Shown one piece after another: positions 8,464 to 43,560 of a stretch of DNA of 64,000 bases; position 1 is the stretch's first letter; each line of letters starts with the position of its first letter. Origin of the DNA: Sipunculus nudus (Eukaryota > Annelida > Sipuncula > Golfingiida > Sipunculidae); assembly GCA_026874595.1 (NCBI GenBank), contig CM049306.1, forward strand, positions 61,138,019 through 61,202,018, written 5' to 3'. A program made the position numbers and the translations under genes. The notes below the pieces were generated by a model. The model saw nothing but the letters and a program-made list of their open reading frames with translations. It did not search any database and was not told where the DNA came from.

Positions 8464-11400
8464 CACTTTATTACATATATACATGTAATATTTAAACGTT
8501 AAGTATTATATAAAGAGTTAGTGAAAATATGCATTTTAAAAAGTTTAAGGTGAAAACAATGCAAAGCATGTCTAAAAACAGATTTTCATTAAGGTCTGTC
8601 TGTCCATCAGTTTTTTGGTTTTTCAGTAATTTTTATTTGCACATCTCAAAATGTTATGGGTGGATTTCCAACAAACTTTAGTGAGAGATATTCCCTGGGG
8701 CAAAGACAGAACCTGTTATCAGTAGCTGATAAGGGTCACTATAATATATATATATGCAGGAGCTATCATGAAGTAGTAACAAATGGTGGTGACATCTGGT
8801 GGTGGACTTTTTATCTCTTTGTTATACATGTTTATTGATAAGTTAAGATTTTACCTCATCCTGGATGTCCATGGCCTTTCTCAGCTGCTCAGCGTGAATC
8901 TTTGTTGCTGCTACAGCCTCATCATAAGCCAAAATCATACGACTGATCACTTCTGTAGCACCCATACTGGCCTCCTCAAGGATCAGCTCCAGAGCTAAAA
9001 CAAAAATTTTGAATTCATTTAAAGAAAAATATATGCCTCAGCTCAGAAGTATAACACTAAAAAAGTAATAATAACTGGCAGTCAGGCTAAGCATCTGAGC
9101 TGAAGTATGATGTTTTACATAAAGCAGGAAGACCGAATCTCAGAGTTAAGTACAACAGACAGACAGCAACCAGACGCAGCCTCAGCTCAGAAGTATAACA
9201 CCATAGACCCAGCCTCAGTGCTAAAATCACTAAAACTGAATTAAAATGCACAAAATGTCACAAGTTTAGATAATACACACAAATATATATACACAGCCCT
9301 ACTACAGTGGAACTTGATCATTTGATTTAAAAACATCATTTAGCATAATCTGTATAAAAATGCAACTGCAATTGTATTGTCCAGTTGTAATGTACATCTA
9401 TAATGTCTTATTTAAGGCACATTTTAGTTACTGAATAAGAGCAGGAGTGGAAGGGGGTGAGTAGTAAGACTGAATAGTTATTTTAAACCTTTTATGATTA
9501 TAACATACTTCTAAATAATTACATAGGCTGGTGTAGTATAATACATGCAAGGATATACTACTCACCAATCCAAAACAGCACCTACTGATGAGCAGTAATT
9601 GTTCAACAGTCTGACATCAGTGGATGAAAATGTCACAAAAAGTAATTTTTTTTTTTAATGTTTTTTTTAATGTAATTGCCTCCAGTTTTTTAATGCTAAC
9701 TTTACAAGCTTTATGTACATGTGCAGATTGTCCTTCAGGTTTTGGTCTACATGACAGGGCAGCAGCACAAGGTTCCTTTAATTTTTTATACTGGTATTAA
9801 CTAGGCCTGATGACTACAGGACCAGATGCCCCTGGGTGTGTAATTGACCCCATTGCTGGGTCATACCACGAAGGAACCCTTGAAAGGTGCACTTGTTTCT
9901 GAGTGAAATACCGCCATGGGGCATATCTTTCCCGTTAGCCCTGCACAGTGCTCACCCTAAGTGTGGGCCCAACATAAAACAAGTGACCCAGGGGTCATGA
10001 CGCTCAGCTGACCAGGAAGACATTGACAAAAGTAATTTTATCATCTGAATGTCAAATTTGAATGAAATACTTTTTCCAAACTTGACCTTTTGTATAAAAT
10101 CATCCAATATTCATTGGGGTACTATGGAGCTCTGTAGCATGAGGGATATGGGTAACAGACACCTATTTTCAAGGTTTACAAGATGACTTTTCAGGGGTCT
10201 TCCAGCATGTCAAAAAATAAAATTCTAGGTCCAGTTATTATGATTTGTGCCCTGTTAACAAATCCAAATGTTTATTCTGGGGGGTATTTCAAAGCCGCAT
10301 AGGATGAAGGATATGGGTAACAGAGATGTAATTTCAGGTGCACAAGGAGACTTTTCAGGGGCCTCCCAGCATATCAAGAAAGGAGATTCTAGGTCAAGTC
10401 ATTATAATTTGTGCTCTGTTAACAGATGACCAAATCTTTATTCTGGGGAGTACTTCGGAGCCCCAGAGCATGAAGGATATGGGTAACAGGGACCTTATTT
10501 CGGGTTTCCATGTAGACCTTTTATGGGCTTCCCTGGAGGTGAGGACAGAAGATTCTAGGTCCAGTCATTATGATTTGTGCCCTGTTAATATATGACCAAA
10601 TCTTTATTCTGGGGGGTACTTCAGAGCCCCATAGCTTACAGAATATGGGTAACAGGGACCTTATTTCAGGTTTCCATGTAGACCTTTTATGGGCTTCCCT
10701 GGAGGTGAGGACAGAAGATTCTAGGTCCAGTCATTATGATTTGTGCCCTGTTTACAGATGACCAAATGTTTAAAGATCACAAAAGTAGAGAAAAAAAATC
10801 GTAAAAAATAAAAAAAATATAGGTGGCGCCACCAATCTCCAGAAATTGATGAAACACTGCATGATCAATATCCATGCAAAGAATCATGGTGATTAATGCA
10901 TTAGTTGTTCAGAAACTTGAGCTTTTGTATTAAATTTTGCATTATTCTGGGGGGTACTTCAGAACCCCATAGCTCGAAGAATATAGGTCACAGTGACCTA
11001 ATTTCAGGTTTACAAGGAGAATTTTCATAGACCTCCCAGGATTTCAAGTAAGAAGATTCCCGGTCTAGCGGTTTCGATTTGTGCCCTGTTAACAGACAGA
11101 CGCCTGGATGGCTGGACGGACGACGGACAAAAGGTGATCCCTACAGCTCAGATGACTTTCAGTCAGCTGAGCTAAAATTGAAAAAATACAGGTGGCGCCA
11201 CCAGAATGCAGAAACTGATGAAACATATCATGATCAATATCCATGCAAAGAATCATGGTGATCAATATAATAATTGTTCAGATACTTGAGCTTTTGTATC
11301 AAATTTTCCATTATTCTGGGGGTACTTCGGAGCCCCATAGGTCTCGGTTATGGGTAACAGAGACCTAATTTCAAGTTTTTAAGGAAACTTTTCATGGGCC

Positions 11401-13916
11401 TCTCAGCATGTCAAGAGAGAAGATTCTAGGTCCAGTTGTTATGATTTGTGCCCTGTTAACAGATGACCGCATCTTATGAGGTCTCAAAAATAGAGAAAAA
11501 ATTCGTAAAAATAAAAAAAATACAGGTGGCGCCACCATACTGCAGAAACTGATGACACATTCCATGATCAATATCCATGCAAAGAATCATGGTGATCACT
11601 GCAATAGTTGTTTAGATACTTGAGCTTTTGTATCAAATTGTCCATTTTTCTTAGGGATACTTCAGATGACTTACAGTCAGCTGAGCTAAAAACACTTAAT
11701 GGTCAATATCCATGCAAAGAATCATGATGATCTCCGTATTAGTTGTTCAGATACTTCAGCTTTTGTATCAAATTGTCCATTATTCTGAGGGATACTTCAG
11801 AGTCCTATAGCTTGAAGGATATGGGTAACAGAGACCTAATTTCAAGTTTCCACAGGCACTCTTCATGGGCCTCCTTGCATGACAAGAATGAAGTTTCTAG
11901 GTCCAGTTGTTGCAATTTGTACCCTCTTGATAGATAACATAGGTGGCGCCACCAGTCTGCAGGAACTGATAGAACATCTCATAATCAATATGTATGCCAA
12001 AAATCATGACCATCAGTGATGTAGTTATTGAGATATTGAAGTTTTTGTATGAAATTTTTTACTACTCTGGGGGGGGGGGTACTTTGGGGCCCCATAGCTC
12101 GAAGGATATGGGTAACAGAGACCTAATTTCTGGTTTCCATGGAGACTTTTCATAGGTCTTCGAGTGTGTTGAGAATGAAGATTCTAGGTCCAGTCGTTAC
12201 TATTTGTGCCATGCTAACAGATGACAGCATCCTTAAAGGTCTCAAAAATAGAGGAAAAAATCGTAAAAAATTGAACGATACAGGTGGCACCACCAGTCTG
12301 CAGGAACAGATGACACATCTCATGATCAATAGTTATGCCACAAATCATGACCATCATTCAAGTAGTTAATGAGATATTGAAGTTTTTGTATGAAATTTTT
12401 TACTTTTCTTGGGGGTACTTTAGGGCTCCATAGCTCGAAGAATATGGGTAACAGAGACCTAATTTTGGTTTCCATGGAGACTTTTCATAGGTCTCTCAGT
12501 GTGTCGAGAATGAAGATTCTAGGTCCAGTCGTTATGATTTGTGCCACGTTAACAGATGACAGCATCCTTAAAGGTCTCAAAAAAAAGAGGAAAAAATCGT
12601 AAAAAATCAAACAATTCAGGTGGCGCCACAAGTCTGCAGGAACTGATGGAACATTTCATAATCAATACGTATGCCAAAAATCATGACTATCAGTATTGTA
12701 GTTATTGAGATATTGAAGTTTTTGTATGAAATTTTTGACTACTCTGGGGGGGGGTACTTTGGGGCCCCATAGCTCGAAGGATATGGTTAACAGAGACCTA
12801 ATTTCTGGTTTCCAAGGATATTTTTCATGGACCTCTCAGTGTGTCAAGAATGAAGATTCTAGGTCCAGCTGTACGATTTGTGCCATGCTAACAGATGACA
12901 GCATCCTTAAAGGTCTCAAAAGTAGAGGAAAAAATTGTAAAAAATCGAACAATAAAGGTGGCACCACCAGTCTGCAGGAAGTGATGACACATCTCATGAT
13001 CAATAGTTATGCCACAAATCATGACCATCAGTCAAGTAGTTAATGAGATATTGAAGTTTTTGTATGAAATTTTTTACTTTTCTTGGGGGTACTTTGGGGC
13101 TCCATAGCTCGAAGAATATGGGTAACAGAGACCTAATTTCTGGTTTCCATGGAGACTTTTCATAGGTCTCTCAGTGTGTCAAGAATGAAGATTCTACGTC
13201 CAGTCTTTACAATTTGTGCCTTGTTAACAGATGTTTACATTTTGAAAGGTCTCAAAAATAGAGAAAAAAATTTGTAAAAAATTGAACGATACAGGTGGCG
13301 CCACCAGTCTGCAGGAAGTGATGGAACATCTCATTATCAATATGTATGACAAAAATCATGACCATCAGTCAAGTATTTAATAAGATATTGAAGTTTTTGT
13401 ATGAAATTTTGGACTTTTCTGGGGGGTACTTTGGGGCCCCATAGCTGGAAGGATATGGGTAACAGAGACCTAATTTCTGGTTTCCATAGAGACTTTTCAT
13501 AGGTCTCTCAGTGTGTCGAGAATGAAGATTCTAAGTCCAGTCATTACGATTTGTGCCTTGTTAACAGATGTTCACATTTTTAAAGGTCTCAAAAATAGAG
13601 AAAAAAATTCGTAAAAAATCGAAAAATACAGGTGGCGCCACCAGTCTTCAGGAACTGATGGAACCTCTCATGATCAATATGTATGCCAAAAATCATGACC
13701 ATCAGTCAAGTAGTTAATGAGATATTGAAGTTTTTGTATGAAATTTTGGACTTTTCTGGGGGGTACTTTGGGGCCCCTTAGCTTGAAGGATATGGGTGAC
13801 AGAGAACTAATTTCTGGTTTCCAAGGAGATTTTTCATGGACCTCCCAGGATGTCAAGTAAGAAGATTCCAGTTCTAGTGGTTACGATTTGTGCCTGGTTA
13901 ACGGACAGACAGACGG

Positions 13917-13951
<35 letters not shown>

Positions 13952-16900
13952 GACGACGGACAAAGAGTGATCGCTATAGCTCAGATGACTTTCAGTCAGC
14001 TGAGCTAAAAAGGCCTATATGCCTAATGCGAACCTGTGCAATGGAATATACATCAGGTATAATGCTTCCATGTTGGACCATTACTTTTCATGTACATGTG
14101 TGACATGTATATGTACAATGCAAGTCCTAAACATTCTGAACCCAAATATAAGCACCAATTACACAAACAACACTCCTGAGTACTGGCATGGATGTACACA
14201 ACATGAATGTATTGTAGATGGCGTCACCAGTCTTATGTAGAAGAAAGCCCACAAAGATCTATGAACAGGCAGATACTTCAAACCACTCCTAAGCTATGTG
14301 CACAAATGCATGAAACCCTAAAAAAATTATACGTGATGCCACACTGTGCAAACATTATTGTAGGTGGCGCCACCAGCCTTGTATAAGAGGAAGCTATCTG
14401 ATATGTACAGATATGCACAATTTCAGGCAGATATATCAAATCCCTCTGGAAAGAAGGGACATACACTGTGCAAAAATCATTGCAGGTGGAGACACCAGTC
14501 TTATGTACCTGAAAGCCATCTAAGATGTATGGACAGGCCAAAATTTCAGGTAAAGGTAAAAGGTAAAGTCCGCTGGGTTTTTACACCCGAGCCCAATGGC
14601 TCATCAGGCCGGAGCTCATCCCGGTTTCGGTAGCGTAAAGCAACTTAGGAGTTAAACTCCTCCTGGATGGGATGCTAGTCCATCGCAGGTTACCTTCCCA
14701 GTATTTACTGGTACCCATTTCTACTGCTGGGTGGACAGAGGCACACTTGCGGTCGGGACCTTGCATAAGGTTCTTGGCCCGGTGGGGGTCTGACCGGGAT
14801 TCAAACTCGCGACCTCCTGATCATGAGCCCGGCACCTTAACCATTACACCACCGCGTCCACTATACACCACTGCCCCCACCAAAATTTCAGGCCCATACA
14901 ATAAACTCCCTTGAGTCAGGTGCAACGGGCTGACCAAGCTCAGCTGAACTCCTTATCTGTTCCTAGCTGCACTGGGTGAACTCTTGACCTGTTACAAAAT
15001 CTGATACAGTTGGCAGTCTGACAAAGCCATAAATAGATCCAGACTAAAACTTGGCCTGTTGCCAAATCTGAAATAGTTGGCAGTCTGCTAAGTTTTTATA
15101 ACGCAGACAAAATTTTGGCATGTTGCCAGATCTGTTTATACGTACTGAAAGACTTTAGCGACAATGCTTTTTTTCAAGCTTCATATTTGAAAGAGTTGTT
15201 TTTTTTATCAAAATGTTTAGAATAAAAACAGATGCCTATTGTTACGGAACCTAATATAAACAGATCACGTATGTGTGATGAAAACAAAATTTGTAATGGA
15301 GATAAAAAAAAATCAGATTCTGTAACACTAGGCAGGGTGAAATGTCAAGGGGAATAAATAAAGAAGTCAGTGTTTTCTTGTTAACAAATAACTATAATTT
15401 ATTCTTAAAACAATCCTAACAATACAATACACTAAATCAATACAATTACACAGTAAAACAGCGTTATAGCAACATGTCAATATAATCACACAGAAAGATA
15501 ATGGTACAGTACCTCAATACCAACACCGTCACCACAATAAGTCCTTTGAATATAAACTCTCAGAGAATGACAGTCCAGTGGAAAGTTCTTGCAACAACAC
15601 AGAAAGTAAACTGAAGTCCAAATGTCCAGAAACAAACTTTTGTTTGTCATAAGAGGACCTGGCCTCATTTGAAATACTCTCGCAAGAGTCATAAAAGGCC
15701 TTATACAGAGAATACTCCTCACAGGAGTCTTGAAAGGACCTAGCCTTATTTAATTCCTCGCAGGAATCAACTGAGGTTTTTACCTTGCAAATCTATGGAT
15801 TCTTCTTTGGATTTAGACCCCACTTGGGCCTCCGTAGCATCAAACTCTTTATTTGAGTCAACAAAGGAGTTGTACCCCCTATCCACATGAAAAGAGCCTG
15901 GCTCTTGTACTATGCTATGCATAGATTTTGAAACAAAACCAGAAGGTTTGCTATTTGTTTTATTCGCAAGTTTCCAGCAGTCAGATATTAGTTGACCTTC
16001 CTTCTTGCAGTATTTACAGAATTTCTTTGAAAATGACTGGTCTCCACACACCAGGCTCATCATGTGACCCATGACCAGGCGTGAAAACTCAAGGCTTACA
16101 AGACAACAAGGGTTCAACCAGTACGGATTAAACATAAAATGTTACAACAACACGAGTTACGCCTGTGTCACACAATAAAAAGAGCACCTGTAACACTACT
16201 GAAAGCTAAATCAGAATACAGAAATATTTTATCCATGAATTTATCTTACACATAAGCTGGATATGGACACTAATTATTTATGTTGCCTGTACCGTTTTGC
16301 TTATATACCCATAGAGCTCAGTTTGTTAATACAATAAATCTACTAGCTTTGTTCAACAAAGTAACTCACAGTCCTTTAATTGTTAAAGGTCCAATAATTC
16401 TGCCACAAATCATTTAAGTAAACTTGATCAGATGCCACCTAAGAATCATTTTTGTGCAATGTTACAGAAGTTGAAACAAAAGTTTTGGAGAAGAAGACTA
16501 TTGCGGCCCTCAGTTTGAAATAGGTTTACTTATTGCTACAAGACCAACTTCAGATTTCTATGAATCTGACAAAAATCAATGAACCCAATCTATTCTTATA
16601 CAATTGAGAGATCCCTACCCTAGGATAATTCTTGTGAAAAATTAAATCATTTAGCTTGAAAGATTCATCATAAAACATTTTTAAGCTTAGAGAGGCTTAA
16701 ATTACAAGTTTTTTGCCCATAAAAACAGGACGATTTAGGTGGCCCCACAAAAACTCAATTTCAAATATGAGACATGTGACCTATATTTGCACAAAACTTG
16801 GTGATGCTTGGTTTTGTTGTTTCTGAAACTGTTATGTTAGTATGCTTACTTGGCCAAATGACTAGGTTCAAATTCCTGTAATTCTGCCAAAATTCATGGA

Positions 16901-19900
16901 ACCCGAACCATTTGAATAAACCTGAGCTCATCTCTGAGATCATTTATGTGAAATATTGAACAATTTGGCTGAATGATTTTGTAGAAGATGATTTTCAAGC
17001 TTTCCCCCCTTAAAATGTAAGTCGATGCAGGCGGTGCCACAAAAAGCTCAATCCCACAACATTTGACATTTGACTGTTTTTTGCATAAAATTGGGGTTGC
17101 TAGGTCCAGCTGTTCCTGAGATATTATGGGTTAATGAACTGATGACTGATGTACAAAAAAGGTCGATGCAGGTGGCGCCACCAATACCTCAATTTCAAAT
17201 ATGACTCATGTGACTAACATTTGCCTAATATTTGGTGATGATAACTCCAGCCAATTCTGAGTTTGTTATTTTTTAGTATGCTTTTTCGTCAAATGACTAA
17301 GTTCAGCTTCCTGTAACTCATCCAAAAATCACCAAATTGGAACATTTTTTAACAAAATTGAGAGAGATTGTTTCTGGGATCATCTCTGTGAAATATTGAA
17401 CAATTTGGCTGGTCATTTTCAAAGACAAAGATTTTTAAATGTTTTTCTAAGCTTTTTCCCCTCTAAGTCAATGCAGATAGCAAAAAAAGTAAGCTCTATC
17501 CAATAATGTTTGACATGTGAATGATTCTTCCATAAAATTTTGTGCTGCTAGCTCAAACATTTTTTGAGGTAGCAAAGGTTAACGTATGGACAACAGTGGA
17601 CTGACAATGGTGGACAGATGTCTCCAGACCATAGCATAAGTTCACAGGTTTGCTAAATATCTCATTGCTTCGGATGACATTCAATCTTATGACCTCCCAG
17701 CTTCGAGTCCTGTGCTCTACCTCAAGAACACAGAAGCTGGTTACCACAGAAGCTACAGTAAGTATGTGGCTGTACACAAGAATATCCATATTATAATTAT
17801 AGCATAATTTAAAAGGATAGGCAGGCAAAGTACGGAAAGTAAGTGTAATTTTTGGGAAGGTCAGTCAGGCCCAATGATGCTTGCAATTTCTCTCACTTTG
17901 TGAATACATTGTGTCAAGCCTGTCATTGCTGCTACCCGGATGAACAGCAGGACCGTGGGTTGTACTGACCTGCATTCTCTGCGGCCTCCTCTGCTGCCTT
18001 CTCTTGTAATCTCTGCTTCACCATCTCCTCCTGCTGTCGTTTCCTCTCTTGTTCCTTCTCTTTTTCTGCCAGCTTTCTCAGTTCTTTCTCTGATTTTTCT
18101 GGGAGTGCCATTCAGAATACTTTTTATAAATTTTACACCTTATACACATTTAATTTATTCCCTAAATCATATCTAATCTGTAATTTTTTAAACAGAAATG
18201 CTTAATCTCAATATTTATTCTGATAAATTTCTACCCTGAAGACGTTTTAACCCCATTCTTACAATTTGTATTACGCCACTGACTTCTGTCAAAGATGGTA
18301 AGACCAAAGTGAGCAAATGACAAAATAAGTTCAAATGTATACAAGCATGAGACTGCTGATAACACACCTTTATGAAAGTTTTATGCTTGAACACAAAAAT
18401 TAAAAAGAGCACAAACATTGATAAGCTAACAGCTTATGCTCAGTGCTTGAATTATTCAAAAGAAACATGTGTCTTATGTTCTTATGAGATTTTACAATCC
18501 TACTCTTGTCAAATTAAAGTAATCAAGGTTTTAGTAATAACTGGTAATTGATAAAGTTGTGAATGACGAGTAAACCAGTTAAGCACACCTGTAATTAGTC
18601 AATTATTTTAATTTGCTTTAGACCAGTTATTCAAAGTGTATGTTTTACAGTTCTATATTTAAAATGGAATAACCTTTAGGCTCCTTCTTCAAAACTTCCT
18701 GAAAGGAAAAAGAAATACATGTTTAAGTAGTCATAAAATTGGCAGAACTGAGACTGATGCAACACTTTAAATAAACACATTCTGATTTTAGCTAGAGCTA
18801 GAAAACCAGCTGAGGAAGAATGAACCATATGGTCCTTAAAGTCCCACATAAACAGAAGTTCACTCACCTTTTTAACTTCTGACATAAATGCTGTACATCT
18901 AATACTTACAGGACAAGCAATGTATATTGCAAAATAATTCTATGGTTACTTGAATAACCAGAAAGCTAAGGATATAAACATTGCATCATTACATCATATA
19001 CTTTCAGCCTTTCATTGTTATGGAGGCAAATAAAAATATTATATGGAAATTTAAATTCTACTGCAGACGTATATAAATATGGCTGGACTCCTAATTCGTT
19101 GGCCAGCTTTATCTTTTTCATAGACTAGGACTACACTATGACAGCAAAGCTTCAGGATAATTTGACTGTAATGTTCCTGAGTTACACTGCAATGTAAATA
19201 TACCTGTGCCAAGAAGGCATTAAGTTTTTTCCCTTGGTTGTTTTTTCAGTTACCAACCCATTGCAAAAATGTATGCCCCAATCATAGTGTAAAGGGCAGC
19301 ATTTGTAGAGTAACTGACCATATGAATCCTTTTTATTGAAGTGTGACACCCTTTACAAAACACAAGTGCTTGATATGGGGATCCTGGCAGCAGGTTTCCA
19401 GGTAGTTATACGATTGACTACATGCACCTTGTTTCCTGTATGTTGTAAGCGGTTGTAACCATGGAATGTCCCTACTTTACTCACCTCCTTTTTCACTTCT
19501 TCAACATTGACCTTGATAGTCTTTGCAAGTCCTCTCCGCTTAGCCTCTTCTGTGTCAGTCATAATTGGACCAGTAGATGTATCAATTCTAAAAATAAATA
19601 CAAGATCACAAAATGAGATCAATTTTGACATCTTATACAATAAATACCAATACATTTTTAGATGGAAGCACATTTCAAGAATAATTGATTATCTTCTTAT
19701 TTAAACTAAATGAACTTTTCTGAAAGTAATTCTTTCAAAAAACCTGATAACCTCAATGAATTTTATTTGACCAAAGTTTCATACAACATATAGAAAATCA
19801 GTAAGAATGGATAAAAATGTATATAAAATAATGCTATACAATTACATTATTCAAAACATTGTTTTACAGCTGTATGCAATGTAATATATCTTTACAATTA

Positions 19901-22900
19901 TTCCATATTCATATGATATACATAAGATAACCTAGGATCACTTGGTATATAATGGTATAAATGTTTTTTTTTACTTTTTGGGAAGTGTAGCCTGTGGTTG
20001 TGCAGGTTTTTGTGCTTCTGGTAAGTACTGAAACAGGACATCAAAAGCTTCCTTTGTGTAGGGTACATTGTCTTCAACTGTTTTCTTGAAGCCTTCGTCA
20101 TACCATGAGTACCCGACCAAGCCACCTCCAGCCACTCCAGTCAGACCTAGCAGCTTCAGAAAGGTGCCAAAGGCACTGCTAAAACCCATCAAAGAACACC
20201 TGTTAGTGATTACTGGGTACATTACAAAATTATGAATGGCTTGCAACTGTATAACTTAAAAAAAGCTCATACATCCATCACAGAGACTTAAAAACCTTTC
20301 TAAAAGGAATTACCAAGAGTTCATTAATTTGTATGCAGAACAAGTCAGAAGTCACACAACTTCTACATGTGAGGCAAGTGAATGGCCAACTTAATCTCTG
20401 TTCTGTTTACATTTATTTTAGATTTCGTAAAAATTTGGACACCCTGTACATTACTGGAAAATTTTACTCATCTTTTGTTTTTTGCTTTACCAAATTTTCA
20501 ACATTGTCTACAGAGAGGGTATGCTTTAGATTAAAGGGATTCTTTAGATCTGAAAATGAATATACAATACGTGTAACATTGGAAAATGTAATGAGGGGGC
20601 TCTAGGTGCCACCTTAAAGTGTGCCTTAGTGAGCCTGCAAACAGTACAGGATTCAACAATAGGTTAATTTTTTTTTTGGAAATGAAGGGGCAAACATTAT
20701 TTTAAGACACTCTGGTGCAGGGTTGGTTTTCTGCTGCACAGAAAGATATTTCCAATGGAAGAAATAAGGCAGAAACCCCTTTCTGCCAGGTGGAAATACT
20801 TTCTGTCAGGCAGAAAAGCAGATAAAGGATAAAAACTGTTTAATGAGTCTGTGGGACTAATTTTCTCAGATTAATCATTTAAGTAGGTTTTGTAAGTTTG
20901 TTGTAGACACTTACATGCTATTGCTTGAAGAAAGACAGTTATATGCATTGGTTTTTAAAGGCCAGTGTTTAATATCTCAGTTGATTGTGTGTTTGATGTA
21001 TCTTAGTCAAACAGATGTGCTATTATTAACATAGTTTATTGCAGTTCACAGGGTATTTCTGCCATTATGGTAGAAACAAAAGCAAAAAGATATTTCTAAT
21101 AATATAAGTACTACCCACCCTGATCGCTGTGGAGGCGGTGGTGGAGGGGCTTGTGGAGGTGGAGCCCTCATAGTGTTCTCAGCAGGCTTTGGGGCTTTTG
21201 GAGCTTCATTTGAATACTGCCGGCCCTGTAAAAAACAATGCATGGAGTATAGATGGAAAAAAACATCTTCCTATTTCATGAAGAAGACAAAAAAACCTTG
21301 ATAAAAAAACAAAAAAAATATGCATAAATAATACCTGATCATGCTTGCCATGCCCCAAAAGGTCTTGGGCCCAACAGGGTAAGTTTGAATCAACAACATT
21401 CTTTTGTTTTTGTAAAAAAAAAACTGTACAAAAATGTTAGTATTTAATGATCATTGTCAAAACCTGGCAGCCTACCTTGGTGAAACAGATAAAAGACCCT
21501 TGAACTTCAAAGATCTGTGATCCAACTCAGGACAGGTGTCAGTTTTTTTCATTAAATATGTTTTTAAAGAATATATTTCACAAATAACTTTTCAACACAT
21601 GATACTCTGCCTGGAGTTAATCCACAGGAATATCACCCGACCAGTGCTGTCATATGTTTACATTTGTTGGGTGCTACATATATACATACTGGTTATGTAT
21701 TCACATGTGGATTTACCACTGGTACGCCTATACATCTTGGCAATCTATGGACTTCACATTGTGCCAGTCACTAAAAAAAGCAAATGAGGTATCTGTTCTT
21801 ATCGGCTGTTTTGGCCGTGTGCAAAATTTTCCTACACACAGGTAGGAAAAGATATAAGCAGTGGGAGTAGTGCCATTTTCTTATTTATAAGTTTTGTGTA
21901 CTGAAAAGTATATCCTGTTGTCCAATCCGGTAGGCGTTTGATTGCAGGAAATGGTGTCTAACACATACAATAAATAATCCATTCCATCACCCCTGTCCAC
22001 TCTTTTTTTTGCATGATTATTTATGAGCAAGTCAAAGAATGGCAAAACTTTTTTTTATCAAAGATAGAAAGAGAAAAATGTGTACTGCAATTAACAATTT
22101 AGTAAATTAGATCGTTAGAGCTCATGTTAGAATTGGTTGAAGCTGTTAAAATGAGGGTTATTTCTTGGTAATTACATGCAATGTCTTTGCGCACGTACAT
22201 TGCAAAAGCTTAAAATAATTAACCCTCGGCTATTTTGTTAACTGCCTGCCACTATAATGTACTCCATCTCATTTTTCGCATAGACAAGGTCAACTTACTG
22301 GTTTAACCCTTGAAATATACCAAATATACGTGGAATACTTGGAACAGGCATCAAGAGCAAGTGAACACTAATGCCTGGAGGGCCCAAGATAACAGTAAGG
22401 GATAAGGAAGACAGAATGTGCACACAAGCCATGATGTAAACTAAAACAGGGAGGTATCATGGTGGATGTTGAATCCAGGTTGGGGCATTTACAACACAAT
22501 GTGTTGTTATGGGTTCATAACTGAAATGAGATTTCAGTTATGGGGATCCTCTTATGGAAAAGCGTAGCAGGGGTATATTGGGATATTTGTAAAATAAACA
22601 GAGAAAATGGAGGCAATTTAGCAAATTTCTTACCAATAATGGCCAACAAACTGTTCTGGAGTAAAAATAAATTATGTAGAAGTGCCCACATAAGGAAATT
22701 GTTAAGATTTATATAACATAAACAGGAGACTCCACATGTATGGAAACTGATATAAAAAGGATATATAGGTAGAGTGAACATAGTTTAAGCTGCATCTTAT
22801 TCTTAATTACTCTTTTATTCTTTCCTTCTGATAAATCAGAAGTTTCCTTCTGATAAATCAGAAGGACCGCTACAATATTTCGTAAGAACATGTTCAAGGC

Positions 22901-23941: not shown

Positions 23942-23943
<2 letters not shown>

Positions 23944-23988
<45 letters not shown>
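23944..23988. repeat. TA microsatellite
   Basis: About 45 bases of TA in the divergent intergenic region. Confidence 0.97.
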
Positions 23989-23990
<2 letters not shown>

Positions 23991-28757: not shown

Positions 28758-28796
<39 letters not shown>

Positions 28797-34700: not shown

Positions 34701-37700
34701 ACTAGGACTTAATACCTTCGAGATATTAATGAAAAACTTCATTTTTCCATTTAAAACCCATTGTTACACTTCAAGACTGCATAATATCAAAGCCACTGAT
34801 CTGACTTTAATCATATATAATATACACATTTTTCTATACATTCTCTATGCACATGCAAGAAATGATGTCAGTATTGTGTAATTGTTTTAAGTTATGGGCC
34901 CAATCATAATGCACTTTGTGAAAAATCAAGAAATATATTTACTCCCTTAACAAGAGGATTGCTGAAGCTCGAGATTTTTTGTCAGGGATGTAACAATATT
35001 TTATCAAGATTCAACTGAATACCCAAAATCAGCTCTGAATTTTTAGGGAACCTGTGAGCTAATGCGATGGTGCGACATCGTCTGTCGTGCGACATGCGTC
35101 GTGCGTGGTCTGTACGTTAACCATAGCTATCTCAAAAACGGCAGGAGCTAGCATCACCAACTTTTTTGCAAATAATCAGTCATCCAAAAAACTATATCGG
35201 ATTTTGTTTCTTTTTTTTCTAACTGCATTTTCTTAAATTTTATAGGGAAAAAGCTAAAAAAGCTTTAAAAATCTTCTTCTCTGAAGTTGTCCAGCCAAAT
35301 TGTCCAATATTTCACAGAAATGATACCTGGAACAATCTTTCTCAAGTTTGTTCGAATGGTTCCAGTTCGCAGATTTTTGGCCGAGTTACAGGAGGTTGAA
35401 CTTTGTTAACTGTGCAAAAAAGCATATTAAAATTTAAATCTCAGAAACAGCTTAAGCTATCATCACCAAATTTTATGCGAATGTTGGTCACATAGGTCAT
35501 ATCTGAAATTGAGGTATTGGTGGCGCCACCTGCATCGGCCTTTTTTGTATGGGGTCATCAGTGCCTGTATCACACTGAAGGCTACAAAAAACTTCTTCTC
35601 TGAAACCATATGGCCAAAATGTTTAATATTGCACAGAAATGATCCTAGGGTAGTGCTTTCTGAAATTTGTTCAAATGGTCTCTTTTCAGTGACTTTTGGC
35701 TAAGTTGTGGGAAGCTGAATTTAGTCATATGCCATAACAGCCCATTTTAGCTCAGTGGCTACAAAGATCTTCTTCTCAAAAACTACTGGGCCAAATTCTT
35801 AAATCTCACACATTAATTGTCCTCAGATGTTGATAATTCAAGTTTGTTCAAATGGTTTTGGTTCAGTGCTTTTTGGCTGAGTTACGGGAAGCTGAGCTTA
35901 GCCAGTTTGCTGTATCTTCCTGTATGAGTTATAAACCTGCGAAATGTTTTTCGACTGATGCCACTGAAGCCAGTTTGTTAAATATTTTACTAGAATAATC
36001 CCTACAATAATTCTTATAATAATTGTCATTTATGGTTCCACATGAATGATTTTTGGCTGAATTATGGAGATTGAATTGAGTCATTTTACCTTATATGTTA
36101 GCTGTGTGATGCTGTTACATCTAGCCTTGCACCAGTTTATCAGCATCTATTACATCATGCCACTAGACATTTAGATTTCAGGTTATCTTTGGTTAATATT
36201 GACAAGAAAGTTTTACTAAAAGCTTTTAAAAATTTAGATTTATGATTTTAGTTATTCATCATACCAGGCAATGTTACAATTATGGATATTCAGCTCTCTG
36301 TGGCTATATAAAGACAACTGTACGTGGATTATAAATTATTGGTATCCCTACTCAACTTAATTCAAGAATTTGCAATCAATGAGATATATCTTTATTTTAA
36401 TTTTGCATTCAGTATGCATCTGTAAGAATTTTACATAAAGTTTAGCCTGAATCTATTTATAGCTTTGGCAGACTGCCAACTGTGTCAGATTATGCAACAG
36501 GTCAAGAGTTCATTCAGTGCAGCCAGGTACAGGTCAAAAGTTCACTCAGTCTAGACAGGTGCAGGTCAAGAGTTCACTCAGTGCAGTAGCTTGAGGCAGC
36601 AATTTGTCACAGGTCACTCGGGGGCAACTTCCTTACTCACCTGAGCCTTGTCAGCCCAATGCATCAAACTCTGGGAAAGTTTGATGTATTGGACTGATAT
36701 TTTTACCTGTCTATGCGTCTTTGATGGTATTCTCATTTACAAGACAGGTGGTGCCACCTACATTGACTTTTGCAGTATATGCGCCTGCTAATTTCTACAG
36801 AGGAATTTGATACATCAGCCTAAAATTGGACATGTTTATACATATCGGGTAGCTTTATAGTGTAGGTACAAGACTGGTGGCGCCATTTACAATAATTCTG
36901 CACAGTGTATGTCTTAATTCACAGGAGAGGTTTGACATATCAGTCTGACATTTGGCATATTTTTATATCTCTTCATTGTATACAAGACTGGTGGTGCTAG
37001 CTACAATCATTGTTTTATGGATACTATGTTTTCAGTCGGATGCAGACGCTGCCGCCATCGCCGCATAGGTTTCTGGAGAACTCCTCCATAACCACTGGGC
37101 AGAAATTTTTAAAATTCTGAATTTTGATTGGTCACATGTGAACTGCTTCGCCCTCATTTTTGGTTGACTCTGACCTCTGATCGAGTTCACGTTTCGTCCC
37201 AGTTGACCTACTTTTGACTGTTTTACAGCTCCTGAACATAGAAAATTTCATGAAAAATACACATGTACTGACTTTCTTTGCAATACCTGAAGATATTGGC
37301 CTGATTTTTGGTGTGTGGGCAGATAATGACCAGTTACAGATCGAGTACATGTTTTGTCCCAGTTGACCTACTTTTGACTGTTTGACGGTGCTCTTACATA
37401 GAAAATTTCATAAAAAAGTGCACATGTACAGACTTTTTTTCGCAATGCCTGCAGATACGGGCCTGATTTTTGGTGTGTAGGCAGATAATGACCAGTTACA
37501 GATCAAGTTCTTGTTTTGTCTCAGTTGACCTACTTTTGACCATTTGACTGCTCCTGAACATAGAAAGTTTCATGAAAAATAGAAATTTTCATAACAAATG
37601 CATATGTTCTGACTTTTTTTCCTCAATGCCTGCAGATACCACCCTGATTTTTTATGTGTGGGCAGATAATGACAGTTACAGTTCGAACTTGCGTTTCATC

Positions 37701-40205
37701 CTGGTTGACCTACTTTTGATTGTTTTACGGCTCCTAAACATAGAAAATTTCATGAAAGACATAAATTTTAATGGAAATTGCACATGTATGGACTTTTTTT
37801 CACAGTGCCTGCAGATACTGGCCTGATTTTTGGTGTGTTGCTTTATAATGACCCGTAACAGATCGAGTTTGCATCCTCCTGAACTTAAAAAAAATTTTAA
37901 AATTTAACAAATGTTCCTAATTTGCCCCAGGCGGGGGCATTCCTGTCGTTCCGACACATCTAGTTAATAATAAATTAAAGAAAAATGGAAAAGGAATTTG
38001 TTAGTTGATAATAACAGGATATTAACTTGCAGTTACTGATGATATAAGAATCTTGTATAGATTAATAGAATGTCTCGTATTCCAAATAACACCATGCAGA
38101 CACCTTTGGTATTTTTCTGTTCAATTTTAATGATAAAAAATAAATCATATTATTCATTAGGGATCATGTGAAGGAAATTAATGATAGACAAAGATGCAGT
38201 TGATAATATTAATCTAGATTCCTGCTGTGTCTAGTGTGTACATTGATGTGAAATTAGTCCAAAATGAATATATTACATTTATTTTTTTTAATATGAACAA
38301 AAGCCATAAACCAGTACTTATGATCATTATTTAAATGGGTGAATTTTGTATATTCTGGATTCTCAACATCATTGTTTTGTGAAAACTGAATAAATACCAA
38401 ACATGGTGCAAATACTTTGCAAATGTATTTGAATATGAATATGTACTCCATTATAAAATTTCTTGCACAAGAATGGGAATTCAGGTAAAAATGAAAGTAT
38501 ATGTATACCAGTGCAAATACTTTCAAAATGTATTCATGAATGTATTCATGAATATATTCTTTGATATTATTTTAATAATCATTTTAGTTGTATTTTATTT
38601 TAAAAATCATACGATTCTTATTATTTTTAATAAAAATTATATTTAGGACAATTTGTATTTATTTTTAATAAATAGTTAAACTCTAATATTATATGTTCTG
38701 CTTATAAGTTATATGGCCAAGTCAAAATCTGTGTGACAATAGCACTCCATTTGTTAATAAAATAAATGAAATCAATCCTCTTCCCTGTCTCCAAAGATAC
38801 TATCAAAATCATACATAAGCTAAACACCCACAACTCATAATACAGCTTATATTTATTTCCAAACAAAACAAGCATGTGCCTCATTTCTAAATCATATTTT
38901 TTTATCATATATAACAGCTGAGCGCCGTGACCCATTGGTCCCTTGTTTTTTTTATAAAAGTCGATTTTTTACCAGCCCTGTGTGAGCCTATAGCTTTGTT
39001 TAGTTTCTGCTTTTGCTGATTTGTCTTTGTCCTATCTGACAAATCCAGCAACTGACCTTCTGTAAATCAATTTTATTTTATAAAGGCCTTTATTGACTGC
39101 ATTTTATTTGATGTGGGCCAATTTGAATACTACTGGTTTGAATGATATATGACTATACTGAACACCTTATGTGCTGTCAGACACAGACCTTCTCTGAATT
39201 ATTTTGTTTTTATAAAGGCCTTTACTAGCAAACCACACATCAGTAGGATACAGGGCCCCAGGCTTAAGGGATTGGACAGGTCAGTGAGGTCGTACCAGGT
39301 CCATATTGCTGCCAAGTTAATAGGCTTATATCTATCACATTGGGCTCATATAAGCCTGGCATGCAGCCTATGTTAGTGCTGCCACGCCCTTTAATATAAT
39401 TAACAAGCATTGAAAGACATGTGACATCACTGTGTTCAGTTACTCACTGCTCTGGAATACAGTCATAAGAATCCCACTTTCCCCAGCGCTCATGACAGAA
39501 GTGTATTACCCTGTATATGTGAAAGTGCCCGACCAATTGGTGCATGTACCCTGTTTAGGTGTTTTACTTGGTAAATGCATGAAAACATTTATCTGTGTTG
39601 GTAACAAATGTTTAATGAGCAATAAATATTTTGAACCTGCTTGCTTGGTATTGCTTTTGTATTGGCCTTAAGGCAGCCTATATGCTATCCTCTGGCCAAT
39701 ACAAGGCAATTTTGAACAAGCTGGTTAATAACATATATATTGCATACTCCCTTATGTGATTTTGGTCCTTTTCTTTCTGGGTTAGGCTATATTCCTTTAT
39801 TTATGATACAGGTGTTGACTGATCCCTTTTGTTTTATACAGGTCATTGCTGGTTGCCACAGCACCCATGGTGTCAACTCATAGAACACGGGTGACTTGTA
39901 GCAGAACTACTGGTAAACCACGCACTGTAAAGGCTGTTATTAAGCGATTCATGAGACTTAATAATGGAATGTGGATCAGGACACGTGCAGGGCGAGGCAA
40001 AAAACACTGGAAGAAGAGCGGTTCTCGTATCAGTCGACTACAGCAGCATGTGTTCTGTAACAACACACAGTGCAGGCTCCTAGACAAGATGGTTAACACT
40101 TACTGGAAGGAAAAGAAATTTAATGCTGATGATCCATATGAACATTATCATAAAAAGACCAATTTACCAGACTTCAAGTATGAAAAACGTCCATTTTATC
40201 CATAA
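25163..40205 (+). CDS. MRPL35: Mitochondrial large-ribosomal-subunit protein bL35m (MRPL35), 3 exons
   Basis: bL35m is a component of the mitochondrial 39S subunit, imported from the cytosol. Exons 25163-25196, 28942-29047 and 39842-40205 join in phase (1, then 2) into a 167-residue protein ending ...FKYEKRPFYP and TAA at 40203. Human MRPL35 is 188 residues. Residues about 1-60 form a basic, Ser-rich targeting region starting MAASLLWKVTT, close to human MAAS. The conserved block carries KPRTVKAVIKRFMRLNNGMW, then KKHWKKSGSRISRLQQHVFC and DDPYEHYHKKTNLPD, matching [35 protein letters not shown] and DDPYQKYHDRTNL in human. Intron 2 (10.8 kb) is packed with transposons. Identity and last exon are firm; exons 1-2 are inferred from phase and composition. 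Confidence 0.93.
26421..27146 (+). mobile_element. Helentron-like family A, copy A2 (0.73 kb)
   Basis: 5' end TTAGCTTAGCTGACTGAAAG then TCATCTGAGCTATA; GTCTGTCC-type run at 26467-26515; two to three diverged ~165-bp units (AATCATAACC.. near 26530, 26666); 3' end CAGTCAGCTGAGCGTTATGA followed by a CCCATTGGTCA hairpin and CTTATT. This is the shortest copy with both ends, in MRPL35 intron 1. Confidence 0.7.
27423..28405 (+). mobile_element. Helitron-like element C, copy C1 (0.98 kb)
   Basis: 5' end TCCACCAAAACAAAGTTTTG then CGGATACTATGTT; ~130-bp internal units centred on GGTGGCGCCACC (27743, 27891) or variants (28015, 28166); decayed hairpin GCGGATAC/ATAGTCGC at 28366-28383, 18 bases, then CTAG (28402-28405) followed by T. 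It shares both ends and length with 57448-58437. Hairpin plus CTAG before T is the Helitron 3' hallmark. No coding capacity. Confidence 0.75.
28550..28581 (+). mobile_element. Family B 3' end (orphan)
   Basis: ACAGGTTCGCATTAGGCCTG then TAAGCCTTGTT is the same terminus as at 42375-42406: inverted copy of the family 5' word, GGCC hairpin, TTGTT end. No matching 5' end nearby. Confidence 0.6.
28611..28712. repeat. Palindromic ~100-bp element between TA microsatellites
   Basis: Left arm TAGGTAAAGAATAAGAGTGA (28611-) and right arm CATCACTCTTTTTTTTACCTA (28692-28712) pair over ~21 bases. Inner words ACTTGT and ACAAGT also pair. TA runs lie on both sides (28590-28610 and 28759-28794). Either a small foldback/MITE or a TA-targeted insertion. 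Confidence 0.65.
28942..29047 (+). CDS. MRPL35: MRPL35 exon 2
   Basis: Acceptor tgtatattttcag; the first two bases GT complete the Gly codon from exon 1. Reads LGKLFGQRTSCSFPQNVQSV then AGGLSAFSGTSSSTR, basic/serine-rich presequence material. Donor AG|GTCATT is weak, but its phase 2 is exactly what exon 3 needs. Confidence 0.75.
29048..29872 (+). other. MRPL35 intron 2, proximal part
   Basis: Less AT-rich than the rest of the intron, with several overlapping short ORFs that match no family I know. A doubled phrase (GCC/GGCCAATCAGATTT, 29635-29648 and 29683-29697) is the only repetition seen. Confidence 0.5.
29873..31765 (+). mobile_element. Helentron-like family A, copy A3 (1.9 kb)
   Basis: 5' end TTTTTAGCTCAGCTGACTAT then AAGTCATCTGAGC; GTCCGTCC run at 29924-29946; a ~700-bp body shared with 32.8-34.6 kb; 3' end CTCGGCTGATTGCTGTAACC then CATGGGTCCCTTGTT with a GGGACCCATGGGTCCC-type dyad in related copies. 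Non-coding. Confidence 0.65.
32965..34044. mobile_element. 1,080-bp DNA element with ~25-bp inverted ends and TA duplication
   Basis: Left end CCGTATTTATTCTAATTTGG, right end inverted CCGTATTTATTCCAATTTGG. Flanks: GAGATA| and |TATTAAGG. Paralogous copies of the host repeat without the insert read GAGATATTAAGG (near 30062) and GAGATATTAATG (near 34721), so exactly TA is duplicated. No transposase ORF. A TA duplication fits Tc1/mariner-type or related transposition. Confidence 0.88.
35031..37010 (+). mobile_element. Helentron-like family B, copy B1 (3' end lost)
   Basis: 5' end TTTTTAGGGAACCTGTGAGC then TAATGCGATGGTG. The body matches 40.65-42.2 kb: GGTGGCGCCACC at 35519, TTCTTCTCTGAAACC blocks, then GGCAGACTGCCAACTGTGTC blocks and ACTCAGTGCAG repeats (36.48-36.59). 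The 3' terminus is missing; a different repeat begins at about 37011. Confidence 0.65.
37011..37963 (+). mobile_element. Helitron-like element D with ~165-180-bp tandem units and CTAG end
   Basis: Begins with the family C-like TTATGGATACTATGTTTTCA and a GCTGCCGCC stretch; four to five tandem units (GATCGAGTT-type words near 37175, 37339, 37502, 37682, 37861). Ends in a GC hairpin TGCCCC-AGGCG-GGGGCA (37923-37939), then 20 bases, then CTAG (37960-37963) followed by T. This is a canonical Helitron-type 3' end. Confidence 0.7.
37964..38900. other. AT-rich interior of element A4
   Basis: No gene or sub-repeat recognised; the short doubled word GTATTCATGAAT near 38530 is the only repetition seen. 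Confidence 0.6.
38989..39841 (+). other. MRPL35 intron 2, distal part
   Basis: Contains repeated phrase TTTATAAAGGCCTTTA (39077, 39210), also seen as TTTATAAAGGCTTTTATT at 31836, so an older repeat underlies this region. No gene. Confidence 0.6.
39842..40205 (+). CDS. MRPL35: MRPL35 exon 3 (conserved L35 domain)
   Basis: Acceptor gttttatacag at 39841; the first base G completes an Arg codon. Encodes the whole conserved domain, including TVKAVIKRFMRL, HWKKSGSRISRL and CNNTQCRLLDKM, and the stop codon. Confidence 0.97.
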
Positions 40206-40412: not shown

Positions 40413-43400
40413 TTTTTAGCTCAGCTGACTGTAAAGTTGTCTAAGCTATAGCAATTCCTCTTTCTTCTGTCTGGCAATTAACAGGGCACTCTTCATAACT
40501 GTTAGACCTAGAAAATTTCAACTTTACATCCAGGGAGGTCCTAAGCAAATCTCCTTGGAAACCTGAAATTAGGACCTACTGGCCAAAAACATGATTTTGG
40601 GCAGGCAGAGGAGGGCACAAATTGTATCCATAAGACCTAGAATTTTTTAGCGAACCTGTGAGCTTATGCAATGGTGTGATGTCGTCTGTCATGTGTCGTG
40701 TGTCGTCTATAAGATAACCTATTATAGACATACTATCTCAAAAAGGGCAGGAGCTAGCATCGCCAAACTTTATGCCAAAAATCAGTCATCTAAAAAGGTC
40801 TATTGGATTTTGTTTATTTTTTTGGCTATCTCCATTTCTTAGATTTTATAGGAAAAAAGCTTGAAAACCTTTAAAAATCTTCTTCTCTGAAACCATCCAG
40901 CCAAATTGTCCAATATTTCACAGCTATCATCACCAAATTTCATGCCAGTGTTGGTCACATGAGTCATATCTGAAATTGAGGTATTGGTGGCGTCACCTGC
41001 ATCAGCTTTTGTATGGGGGTCACCAGTGCCTTTATACAGTGGCTACAAAGAACTTCACCTCTGAAACCATTGCACAGAAATGGTCCTAGGGTAGTGGTTT
41101 CTGAAGTTTGTTCAAATAGTCTTATGTTTTGTGACTTTTGGCTGAGTTATGGGAAGCTGAAGTTAGTCATATGGCATAACAGCCCTGCACAGGTCTTCTT
41201 CTCAAAAACCACTCGGTCAAATTCTTAAATCTCACACATTAATTATCTTTAGATGTAAATAATTCAAGTTTGTTCAAATGGTTTTGGTTCAGTGCATTTT
41301 GGCTGAGTTACGGGAAGCTGAACTTAGCCAGTTTGCTGTATCTTCCTATATGAGATATAAACCTGCAAAACCTTTTTTTGACTGACGCCACTGAAGCCAG
41401 TTTGTTTAACATTTTACAAGTATAATCCCCACAATAATTCTTATAATAATTGTCATTAATGGTTCCACATGAATGATTTTTAACTGAATTTTGAAGATTG
41501 AATTGAGTCATTTTACCATATATGGTAGCTGTGTGAAGCAGTTCCATCTAGCCTGGCACCAGTTTATCAGCATCTATTACATCATGCCACTAGACATTTA
41601 GATTAGACTGCCAACTATTTTAGATTTGGCAACAGGCCAAAGATCAGCCTGGATCTATTTATAGCTTTGGCAGACTGGCAACTATCAAATTAGGCAACAG
41701 GTCAAGAGTTCACTCAGTGCAGTAGCTGTATTATATTTATAGCTTTGGCAGTCTGCCTATTCTATCAGAATTGGCGCCAAAGGTCAGTCTGGATATATTT
41801 ATAGCTTTTGAAAACTGTCAACTGTGTCAGATTATGCAACAGGTCAAGAGTTCACTTACTAAAGCCAGGTACAGGTCAAATGTTCACTCAGTCTAGCCAG
41901 GTGCAGGTCAAGAGTTCACTCAGTGCAGTAGCTTGAGCCAGTAATTTGTCACAGTTGCCTTTCTCACCTTGGCCTGGTCAGCCCAGTGCCTTAAATCCAA
42001 GAGAAGTTTAATGTATTGGCCTGATATTTTGACCTGTCAATGCATCTTTGATGGCTTTCTCCTTCTCAAGACCGGTGTCGCAACCTTACAATGACTTTGA
42101 ACAGTGTATGTGCCTGCTTATTTCTCCAGAGGAATTTGATATATCAGCCTGAAAATGGGCATATTTATACAAATTGTAAAGCTTGGTGGTATACAAGACG
42201 GGTGGCGCCACCTACAATAATTTTTGTACAGTGTATGTCCCTGCTTATTTCTCAGGAGGGGATATCAGCCTGAAATTGGGCATATGTATACATCTTGGCA
42301 TGCACAAGACATGTAGGCCTACTTAAAAGTAATGGCCAAGCACTGAAGTATTATACCTGGTGTATAAACCATTGCACAGGTTCGCATTAAGCCTGTAGGC
42401 CTTGTTAAATTATCAGTCTGGGAGGTCCAGAACAAATGTCATAGGAAACATGTAACTAGGTCACTGTTACTTATAATTTGTGATCAGTAGAAGATCTAAA
42501 AGATGTCAAATGAGCACACTGAATGTCAAATGGGAAAAAATCATATCTATTAGGCCCAGAACCTTCTAATGCAACATCCAGGGAGGTTCTGGAAAAGTTT
42601 CCTCGGAAACCTTACATTAGGTCATGGTGACCTATATTCTGCAAGCTACAAACCAAAAACATAATTCTGAGCACCTAGACAGACAGGGTTCAAATTGTAT
42701 CTATTTTCCATGGAATCTTCTAATATATCATCCGGTCAAGCCTTTGGCAAATCTCCTTGGGAACCGGAAATTGGGTCATGGTGACCTGTATTCAACGAGC
42801 TGCTGGAAAACAACTTGAAACTGACCACCCAGGCGGTTACACAGGGCCCAACACCCAACTGTTAGACATAGAACCTTGTATGGTAAAATCAAGGGAGCTC
42901 CTTGACAAGTCTCCTTTGAATCTTGAAATTAGTTCATTGTGACATATAAACTGTGAGCTACAGGAACATACATGATTTAAGTACCTTGAAAGTAAGATGG
43001 GCAAAAATCATAACGGTTGAACCTGGAGCCTTGAAATTCAAGTTCTTTGGCAAATATCCTTTAGCACTCCACCTGAGTTCAGCTCATGATGCCCTATAGT
43101 CTGTGAGGTACAAGCAGAAAAAAATTAGTTTTGAGTACTCAGAAAGTCAGATGTGGCCATACTCTTAAATGTTGGATCAAGAAATGTTATTTTAATGTCT
43201 CCTTGCATAACCAAAATAAGGTCACCGTGACTATATTCTGTTAGCTATGAGATTGAACATGATGTTAGTCAGACTGTCACAAATGGTAGCAGTTGGACCT
43301 ATAAAAAATTAGGTTGCAGAGAGGGCCCTATTATATCTTAGAACCCCTAAATAAGGTCACTGTGACCCATATTCCGAGAGCCTTTAACACCAGATAAGTG

Positions 43401-43560
43401 AGATGGAGACAGATCCTAGCAGTTGGACAAAGAAGTTATCATCCGTGGAATTCTTGGTAATATTTTCTTAGAAATCCATAATAAGATCACTGTATCATAT
43501 TTTTAAGGCACAAAATGCCTGATTTGGAGCACTCTGGAAGTAATTTTATCCATTGTTCAA
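40413..43560 (+). mobile_element. Helentron-like family A, copy A5 (host of copy B2)
   Basis: 5' end TTTTTAGCTCAGCTGACTGT at 40413. After B2 is removed, the body resumes at 42407 (TCAGTCTGGGAGGTCCAG...) with five to six diverged units (GGTCAYGGTGACCTATATTC-type phrase near 42613, 42776, 42932, 43088, 43232, 43363; spacing 131-163). No 3' terminus found; right border approximate. Confidence 0.6.
40645..42406 (+). mobile_element. Helentron-like family B, copy B2 (complete, 1.76 kb)
   Basis: 5' end TTTTTAGCGAACCTGTGAGC then TTATGCAATGGTG; 3' end CACAGGTTCGCATTAAGCCT then GTAGGCCTTGTT. The 11-bp word GCGAACCTGTG (40650-40660) recurs inverted as CACAGGTTCGC (42375-42385), followed by an AAGCCT/AGGCCTT hairpin and TTGTT. 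Interior has GGTGGCGCCACC at 42201 and GGCAGACTGSCAACT blocks. Inserted in element A5 between CCTAGAATTT and AAATTATCAG with no visible duplication. Non-coding. Confidence 0.75.

Follow-up and report, generated by a model that had tools for sequence, protein, structure and literature searches.

The genome of the sipunculan Sipunculus nudus (assembly GCA_026874595.1; 1.43 Gb, 153 contigs) carries repeat families, named here A, B, C and D, which we describe from a window of 64,000 nucleotides on contig CM049306.1 (C1:61138019-61202018), the window being the whole stretch of DNA that was analysed. In the places listed, the copies keep one orientation for tens of kilobases, and nearby copies of different families mostly share it. 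Where a gene strand was available, nearly all copies lie in the sense of the gene. We are confident that A, B and D belong to an already known kind of element, the non-autonomous Helentrons (HINEs). For the joint claim that these three families are HINEs and that the local orientation pattern holds, the cause of the pattern excluded, we estimate a probability of roughly 0.8. To our knowledge, the target choice of Helitrons and Helentrons is an open question. Our search of mostly non-subscription literature returned no matching title or abstract start on their local orientation. The case for a locally fixed, gene-aligned orientation, which we did not find described and whose cause is open, is moderately strong. 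The original prediction for this DNA had proposed a Helentron-like design for A and B; the palindrome GGTGGCGCCACC shared between families and the orientation domains are additions to it.

Orientation of neighbouring copies

The window was not selected for orientation. Its 21 ends, taken in order, comprise seven minus, 11 plus and three minus (runs test: p 6e-5 counted by end, 0.015 counted by element). The first strand switch falls between 17.7 and 26.4 kb, the interval in which the minus-strand IMMT exons come to an end, and before the plus-strand MRPL35 exon.

The genome-wide statistics on A and B cover the first 100 listed places of each family. For A (100 of 32,724 places; C1:96,436-2,225,363) these form six strand runs against 36 expected, and the minimum in 20,000 shuffles was 21. 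For B (100 of 4,726; to C1:17.4 Mb) there are 33 runs against 49 expected, with a shuffle minimum of 30. Adjacent A ends share a strand in 68 of 70 pairs at 0-20 kb and in 20 of 22 at 20-50 kb, and adjacent B ends in 20/20 at 0-20 kb, 13/16 at 20-50 kb and 11/20 at 50-100 kb. With the first 1.15 Mb removed, the B values become 13/13, 9/12 and 9/18 for the same distances. The agreement extends across families among the places listed: A and B agree in 19 of 20 comparisons within 60 kb, and D and B in nine of 11 within 60 kb and in all five within 20 kb, 22 of the 100 listed D places falling in the range of the B list. The start of C1 (96 kb-1.15 Mb) is a near-pure minus block, with one plus among 75 listed A places. 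Three further blocks were retrieved and counted at E up to 1e-4, with one inverted-repeat echo dropped. Block b2 (C1:11965001-12025000) has 26 of 26 ends plus, block b3 (C1:14830001-14870000) has 13 of 13 minus, and block b1 (C1:1140001-1240000) has seven minus followed by three plus. These blocks illustrate the pattern and do not test it, because b2 and b3 were picked for runs in the B list and b1 for a change in the A list.

Such clusters could arise by nucleation, in which new copies enter the T-rich ends of old ones and inherit their direction, so that a cluster grows by head-to-tail nesting. Several arrangements are of this kind: the A1 array is joined to the end of B1, an A 3' end in b3 runs directly into a B 5' end, and both A1 and 61391-61456 are tandem. 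The agreement of A ends, which stands at 55 of 56 pairs at 2-20 kb and persists at 20-50 kb, reaches beyond the size of a single nest here. Pure head-to-tail nucleation was rejected on the 2-20 kb pairs, and we consider nucleation very improbable as the cause of the polarity. The supply of T-runs was likewise rejected as the cause, since runs of at least five in the window number 243 for T and 265 for A. By region, there are 81 T and 91 A runs in 1-20255, where the copies are minus, 63 and 65 in 27000-40205, where they are plus, and 67 and 70 in 40206-61000. Two regions are uneven (13 T and 32 A in 20256-27000; 19 T and 7 A in 61000-64000), each against the orientation of its local copy. T exceeds A on the copy-oriented strand in 25 of 25 stretches, by 3.5% overall, to which the elements themselves contribute.

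The relation to genes was read from IMMT and MRPL35 in the window and from myosin genes found by a family search, whose intron stretches were chosen before their content was known (Table 1). Four copies sit between IMMT exons, every one of them minus; upstream of the last MRPL35 exon there are three, every one plus. Gene-sense copies make up 13 of the 14 inferred copies (sign test p 0.0018), or 10 of 11 without MRPL35. Elsewhere on C1, a minus-strand RAF exon lies in the first minus domain, and the next plus domain opens with a long frame on the plus strand whose match to MINAR1 is weak (19.5 bits, the cut-off being 28); the name is uncertain because coiled-coil matches score higher. The minus block at C1:0.1-1.15 Mb (L011:1784-2128 and neighbours) includes the RAF exon. 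In b2 and b3, two frames were tried as exons, and neither matched a family.

Selection could produce the same agreement with genes, if both orientations land and antisense intronic copies are removed for disturbing splicing or transcription more. Intronic orientation biases of other transposons are commonly put down to selection in the partly accessible literature. The same kind of source reports that long terminal repeat (LTR) and long interspersed nuclear elements usually show an antisense excess, which is the opposite direction, and adds zebrafish data on gene distance. Moreover, the purging of nearly all antisense copies from several unrelated families would demand very strong selection. 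We regard this explanation as doubtful, while still giving it real weight.

Termini, insertion and the shared palindrome

Family A starts with TTTTTAGCTCAGCTGACT, a short spacer and AGTCATCTGAGCT, and its 3' end is CAGCTGAGCGNNNTGACCCATGGGTCNCTTGTT (25 copies in the retrieved sequence). Family B starts with TTTTTAGCGAACCTGTGAGC and ends with GCACAGGTTCGCATTAGGCCTGTAGGCCTTGT(T) (19 copies listed, 18 of them distinct as L008 and L009 overlap), and the 5' end of D is TTTTTAGCCCTCAGCC..GGCTGATGGGCT with a GTCC microsatellite. Five shuffles of the window gave 0 matches to the 3' patterns of A and B. Relaxed to up to five mismatches, the A 5' pattern averages 7.2 matches per window shuffle, and A 5' matches with four or five mismatches are therefore no evidence alone. 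Across the genome, the exact A 18-mer occurs 16,251 + 16,473 = 32,724 times on the two strands, the exact B 20-mer 2,411 + 2,315 = 4,726 times and the D 5' 30-mer (one open position) 551 + 554 = 1,105 times; each reversed control gave 0. The plan put forward earlier for A and B, a 5' T-run with AG, a word inverted near the 3' end and a TTGTT-type end, is present in both families. A canonical Helitron starts with TC, ends with CTRR and inserts between A and T. This class was rejected for A and B, which begin with a T-run plus AG and finish with CTTGT(T).

HINEs are described as having subterminal inverted repeats (subTIRs), an inverted repeat near the 5' subTIR, a microsatellite, central repeats, a 3' palindrome and a T-rich target without duplication, according to the accessible parts of two sources (PMC4067079, PMC7492417). 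Family A carries the full set, including a GTCY microsatellite, with a 9-bp subTIR nearer the 3' end than in the mite; B follows the plan with a weaker inverted repeat, and in D, the 5' half of the plan is present. The 5' inverted repeat and microsatellite are clear in A and D and weak in B. The subTIRs measure 9 bp in A and 11 bp in B, the A repeat being shorter than the published 11-15 bp. Here the 3' subTIR lies about 24 nt and the palindrome about 7 nt from the end, the mite values being 38-60 and 8-35 bp, which need not be binding in other species. The short hairpin proposed near the 3' end survives in part. The palindrome is conserved in sequence there, GACCCATGGGTC-like in the A copies and AGGCCTGTAGGCCT-like in the B copies listed, but only one of nine folded 3' ends is clearly better than its shuffles, and the strong hairpin is formed by the 5' subTIR and inverted repeat of A (z -4.1 to -5.4 in three copies folded). 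The Helentron-like reading has gained from these comparisons, the HINE features that could be tested being present, with spacings and word lengths slightly below those of other species. A motif scan of open frames in the retrieved sequence found no Pif1-type Walker A or HUH-YxxK motif, 12 window frames compared with Pfam (reporting cut 0.1; sets of 10 and five, with alternative frames at three overlapping sites) gave no Helitron family match, and a search for HLE2 gave no match. With no Helitron-type domains in the scanned frames, the copies seen look non-autonomous, and their partner enzyme is putative.

The proposed insertion into T-rich DNA without a visible duplication agrees with the flanks of eight window insertions: seven lack any direct duplication, and the eighth, B1, which is flanked on the right by A1, has a 1-base match. 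The joined flanks of B3 match 13 rows across the junction; these represent 11 distinct places, because the L007/L009 and L008/L009 rows coincide in overlapping loci. In four of six empty-site alignments, a 5-base T-rich segment stands at the position of the T-run of the filled site, and in two the gaps lie elsewhere. From these alignments, the target T-run appears to be kept once, the element proper being about AG...CTTGTT. Miniature inverted-repeat transposable elements (MITEs) of a DDE transposon are also short, non-coding repeats with inverted words near their ends, and bivalve pearl elements were formerly called MITEs, as the accessible part of one source has it (PMC7492417). The original prediction held that MITEs would show a target-site duplication, and the eight insertions show none beyond the single 1-base match. 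Besides the missing duplication, the inverted repeats here are subterminal rather than terminal and the ends are unequal; the MITE reading was rejected on these grounds, and we give it hardly any credence.

The tandem arrays of A, B, C and D, and of a further unit type, all contain the 12-bp palindrome GGTGGCGCCACC. It occurs in the window 14 times exactly and 31 times with up to two mismatches, against a total of 0.4 per shuffle. Over 353,246 bases, a count that leaves out three overlapping loci, there are 67 exact occurrences and 129 with up to one mismatch, and 11 other palindromes of the same letters gave 0 each. The 129 contexts fall into eight clusters of at least four and five singletons, and we assign two of the eight to D, one for each orientation. 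Masking the palindrome leaves clear homology between B3 and C units (E down to 2.6e-16), and A2 contains sequence of D type (E 2.8e-4). In alignments of masked units, the score was reached by 0 of 1000 shuffles for A-D, 0 for B3-C, one for D-A2 (A2 unmasked) and nine for B3-B5. Masked A units showed no significant similarity to B3, B5 or C units (285, 326 and 156 of 1000 shuffles reached the score), so that A and B have the palindrome in common without shown descent of the whole unit. The two families had been called unrelated in sequence, which is right for their termini, but their central arrays share GGTGGCGCCACC. The palindrome is a putative site for a dimeric protein, and a text search for it returned only one, unrelated publication. 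Family C terminates in CTAG at six of six places found, and its 5' edge is unsettled; the pattern made for its end is too specific, with 21 genome copies.

Possible causes of the polarity

Neighbours that point the same way and copies aligned with genes suggest that something directional in the DNA guides landing or survival. In the mechanism that we propose, a Helentron Rep-helicase-endonuclease would be supplied in trans, and rolling-circle synthesis would peel off one strand, starting at the 5' T/AG junction and finishing at the 3' palindrome and CTTG. The freed strand would then join a T-run that is single-stranded at that moment. Transcription could expose the non-template strand, in its bubble or in an R-loop, and replication could expose the lagging-strand template where forks move with the gene. 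With one strand exposed in either of these ways, the copy would take the orientation of the gene. Helentron Rep is an HUH enzyme, and strand-specific entry into exposed T-runs is thus a natural model. As a whole, strand-specific integration into transcription- or replication-exposed DNA, with tens of thousands of copies as a permanent map of germline transcription or fork polarity, has in our judgement a little under an even chance. If the pattern is real, transcription-coupled entry is our tentative explanation of it, held with less than even odds, and we leave a small share to some other cause.

Replication polarity would have the strands join the lagging-strand template, so that orientation would record fork direction and the agreement with genes would be indirect. 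IS200/IS605 elements give a precedent, as their orientation follows replication in bacteria because they use exposed single strands, according to the accessible part of the source (PMC5371812). The uniform 1-Mb block that opens C1 would make a long single gene, and it favours replication or several co-oriented genes. The disappearance of B agreement by 50-100 kb stands against replication, as does the position of the window switch between the end of the IMMT exons and the MRPL35 exon. This decay length and the gene agreement favour transcription, and replication as the cause seems to us unlikely, if worth pursuing.

Several observations weigh against a gene-guided, locally fixed orientation, whichever process is held responsible. 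Only 14 copies have a gene strand, of which the three at MRPL35 hinge on an unlocated gene start, and the B copy in a C2 myosin intron (L038) is antisense. The C9 myosin stretch (L040) is likely within one gene, though the 84-kb gap around it contains no recognised exon. The 1-Mb minus block of C1 exceeds typical gene length. Some copies oppose their surroundings: a D copy in b1, one C copy in b3, two of the 11 D-B neighbours within 60 kb, and a further repeat at window 43722-44067, which is oriented against its relatives. At a looser cut of 1e-3, b3 gains one weak A end that opposes the others, and more echoes appear. Blast matches from stretch to stretch are in the same orientation in 1625 cases and opposite in 119, a count inflated by tandem units, and the domains may be a general property of this genome rather than specific to Helentrons.

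If true, a strong local orientation that unrelated families share and that follows the gene strand would indicate single-stranded T-runs as the substrate of insertion, with transcription or replication as its guide. The pattern could then be read as a natural archive of germline transcription or of the direction of forks. The polarity is directly checkable in any annotated HINE-rich genome.

Copies in the window and related systems

The copies and gene references are collected in Table 1. Most A and B termini of the copy list in the original prediction were recovered, but the A copy from 40413 and the B copy from 35040 have no recognisable 3' end. The latter had been placed at 35031, and family C follows inside it. 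An inverted B copy does lie at the position 14011 given before, but the whole copy spans 14007-17659. The single A copy proposed at 9978-14010 has its A ends and is actually a head-to-tail array, with three A 5' ends for a single 3' end. This arrangement of A1, with 5' ends in the same orientation, is compatible with rolling-circle tandem copying.

Table 1. Repeat copies, their recognised ends and the genes used as strand references (window positions; signs give the strand).
Feature	Position	Strand	Remarks
IMMT (mitofilin) exons	667-1005, 1981-2322, 19971-20255	minus	gene strand reference, span 667..20255
D copy	4635-5508	minus	5' end at 5508, 302-bp tandem units to ~4635; 3' end not identified
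A0, A 3' end of further copy	7336-7368	minus	5' end not found; absent from original list
A1, A copies	9978-14011	minus	5' ends 14011, 11692, 11178; one 3' end, 9978; 166-bp and 337-bp tandem units
B1, whole inverted B copy	14007-17659	minus	3' end abuts A1 5' T-run
A2, short diverged A copy	26418-27146	plus	D-like unit near 3' end; D profile match 26943-27075, E 2.8e-4
C-type 5' region and B 3' end	27415-28581	plus	units contain GGTGGCGCCACC
A3, A copy without tandem units	29873-31765	plus	
A4, A copy with nested repeats	32752-38947	plus	
B2, B 5' end and units within A4	35040-37010	plus	no B 3' end; right limit approximate
Family C copy	37010-37966	plus	degenerate C 5' region, 162-180-bp units, ends CATCTAG; left limit approximate
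MRPL35 (ribosomal L35) last exon	39819-40205	plus	gene strand reference; gene start not located
A5, A 5' end with A-type units on both sides of nested B3	40413-43560	plus	no 3' end found; right limit from original prediction
B3, complete B copy nested in A5 unit	40644-42406	plus	empty site in paralogous units
Second C-type 5' region and palindrome units	57435-58440	plus	
A-like copy, diverged 5' end	61391-62654	minus	3' end twice in tandem: 61456-61424, 61423-61391
A 5' ends, exact	+29873, +32752, +40413, -14011, -11692		
A 5' ends, inexact	-11178, +26418		1 mismatch; 2 mismatches
A 3' ends	+38915-38947, +27114-27146, +31733-31765, -10010-9978, -7368-7336		
B 5' ends	+35040, +40644, -17659		
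B 3' ends	+28549-28581, +42374-42406, -14039-14007		
C2 myosin stretch, L037		gene plus	no A/B end; relative of window 43722-44067 repeat, direction undefined
C2 myosin stretch, L038		gene plus	one copy plus (sense), one B copy minus (antisense)
C13 myosin stretch, L039		gene plus	one copy, plus
C9 myosin stretch, L040		gene minus	five ends, each of them minus, taken as three copies
C8 myosin stretch, L041		gene minus	no A/B end; one D copy, minus

The A1 5' end at 11692 is a scrap of about 34 bp, and a short shared word marks its junction with mid-unit sequence. The 3' end of the A-like copy is doubled head to tail in 33-bp units (61391-61456), as if termination had slipped. Family C starts, by eye, at the same position of the B unit in 36990-37050, at b2 29204 (L029) and at L010 1674. 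This junction is shared by several copies, as if a B+C composite had multiplied. A candidate tRNA-like short interspersed nuclear element (SINE) lies inside B1 (14560-14890; B-box-like word, by eye). Its first pattern counted one copy in the genome and its second, a 21-mer, two exact copies.

IMMT and MRPL35 are arranged head to head (span 667-40205), which we take to be the arrangement in human too. A 36-bp tandem repeat lies in the IMMT region at 3427-3804 (Tandem Repeats Finder: 8.8 copies, 3427-3736), and it gave no match to the Helentron arrays in a self-comparison of the window. The direct repeats 47170-47746 and 55279-55848 are 92% identical and 8.1 kb apart. A 20-mer from them has 48 exact genome copies, several paired about 3.4-3.7 kb apart, the picture that retrotransposon LTRs would give. 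In the C2 myosin gene, at 59.38 Mb, one copy sits between exons in antisense orientation. The 48 copies are too sparse to serve as a local orientation control.

The comparisons below follow the accessible parts of the papers cited. IS200/IS605 resemble these families in that copy orientation tracks a directional host process, but they are bacterial, replication is the cause there, and HINEs are not members of that family (PMC5371812). HINE-Mo of a mite and DINE-1 of Drosophila share subTIRs, a 3' palindrome, a T-rich target, no duplication and optional tandem repeats, and DINE-1 also the 5' inverted repeat. They differ in having a known autonomous partner, here putative, and HINE-Mo in the greater distance of its 3' subTIR from the end (PMC4067079). 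Bivalve pearl and DTC84 elements are likewise modular, with central repeats of about 160 bp, and DTC84 has a conserved palindrome near the repeat junction, which may or may not be GGTGGCGCCACC (PMC5139131, PMC7492417). Cg_HINE of Crassostrea gigas shares the 5' subTIR with complementary inverted repeat, GTCY microsatellite, satellite-like central units, 3' subTIR, palindrome and T-rich target without duplication. Its subTIR is 11-12 bp, against 9 bp in A, and the possession of GGTGGCGCCACC by several families distinguishes the present case. Both insertion orientations are reported for Cg_HINE, and local domains or a gene-strand bias are not mentioned in the accessible part of that paper (PMC7492417), whereas here the copies keep a local direction.

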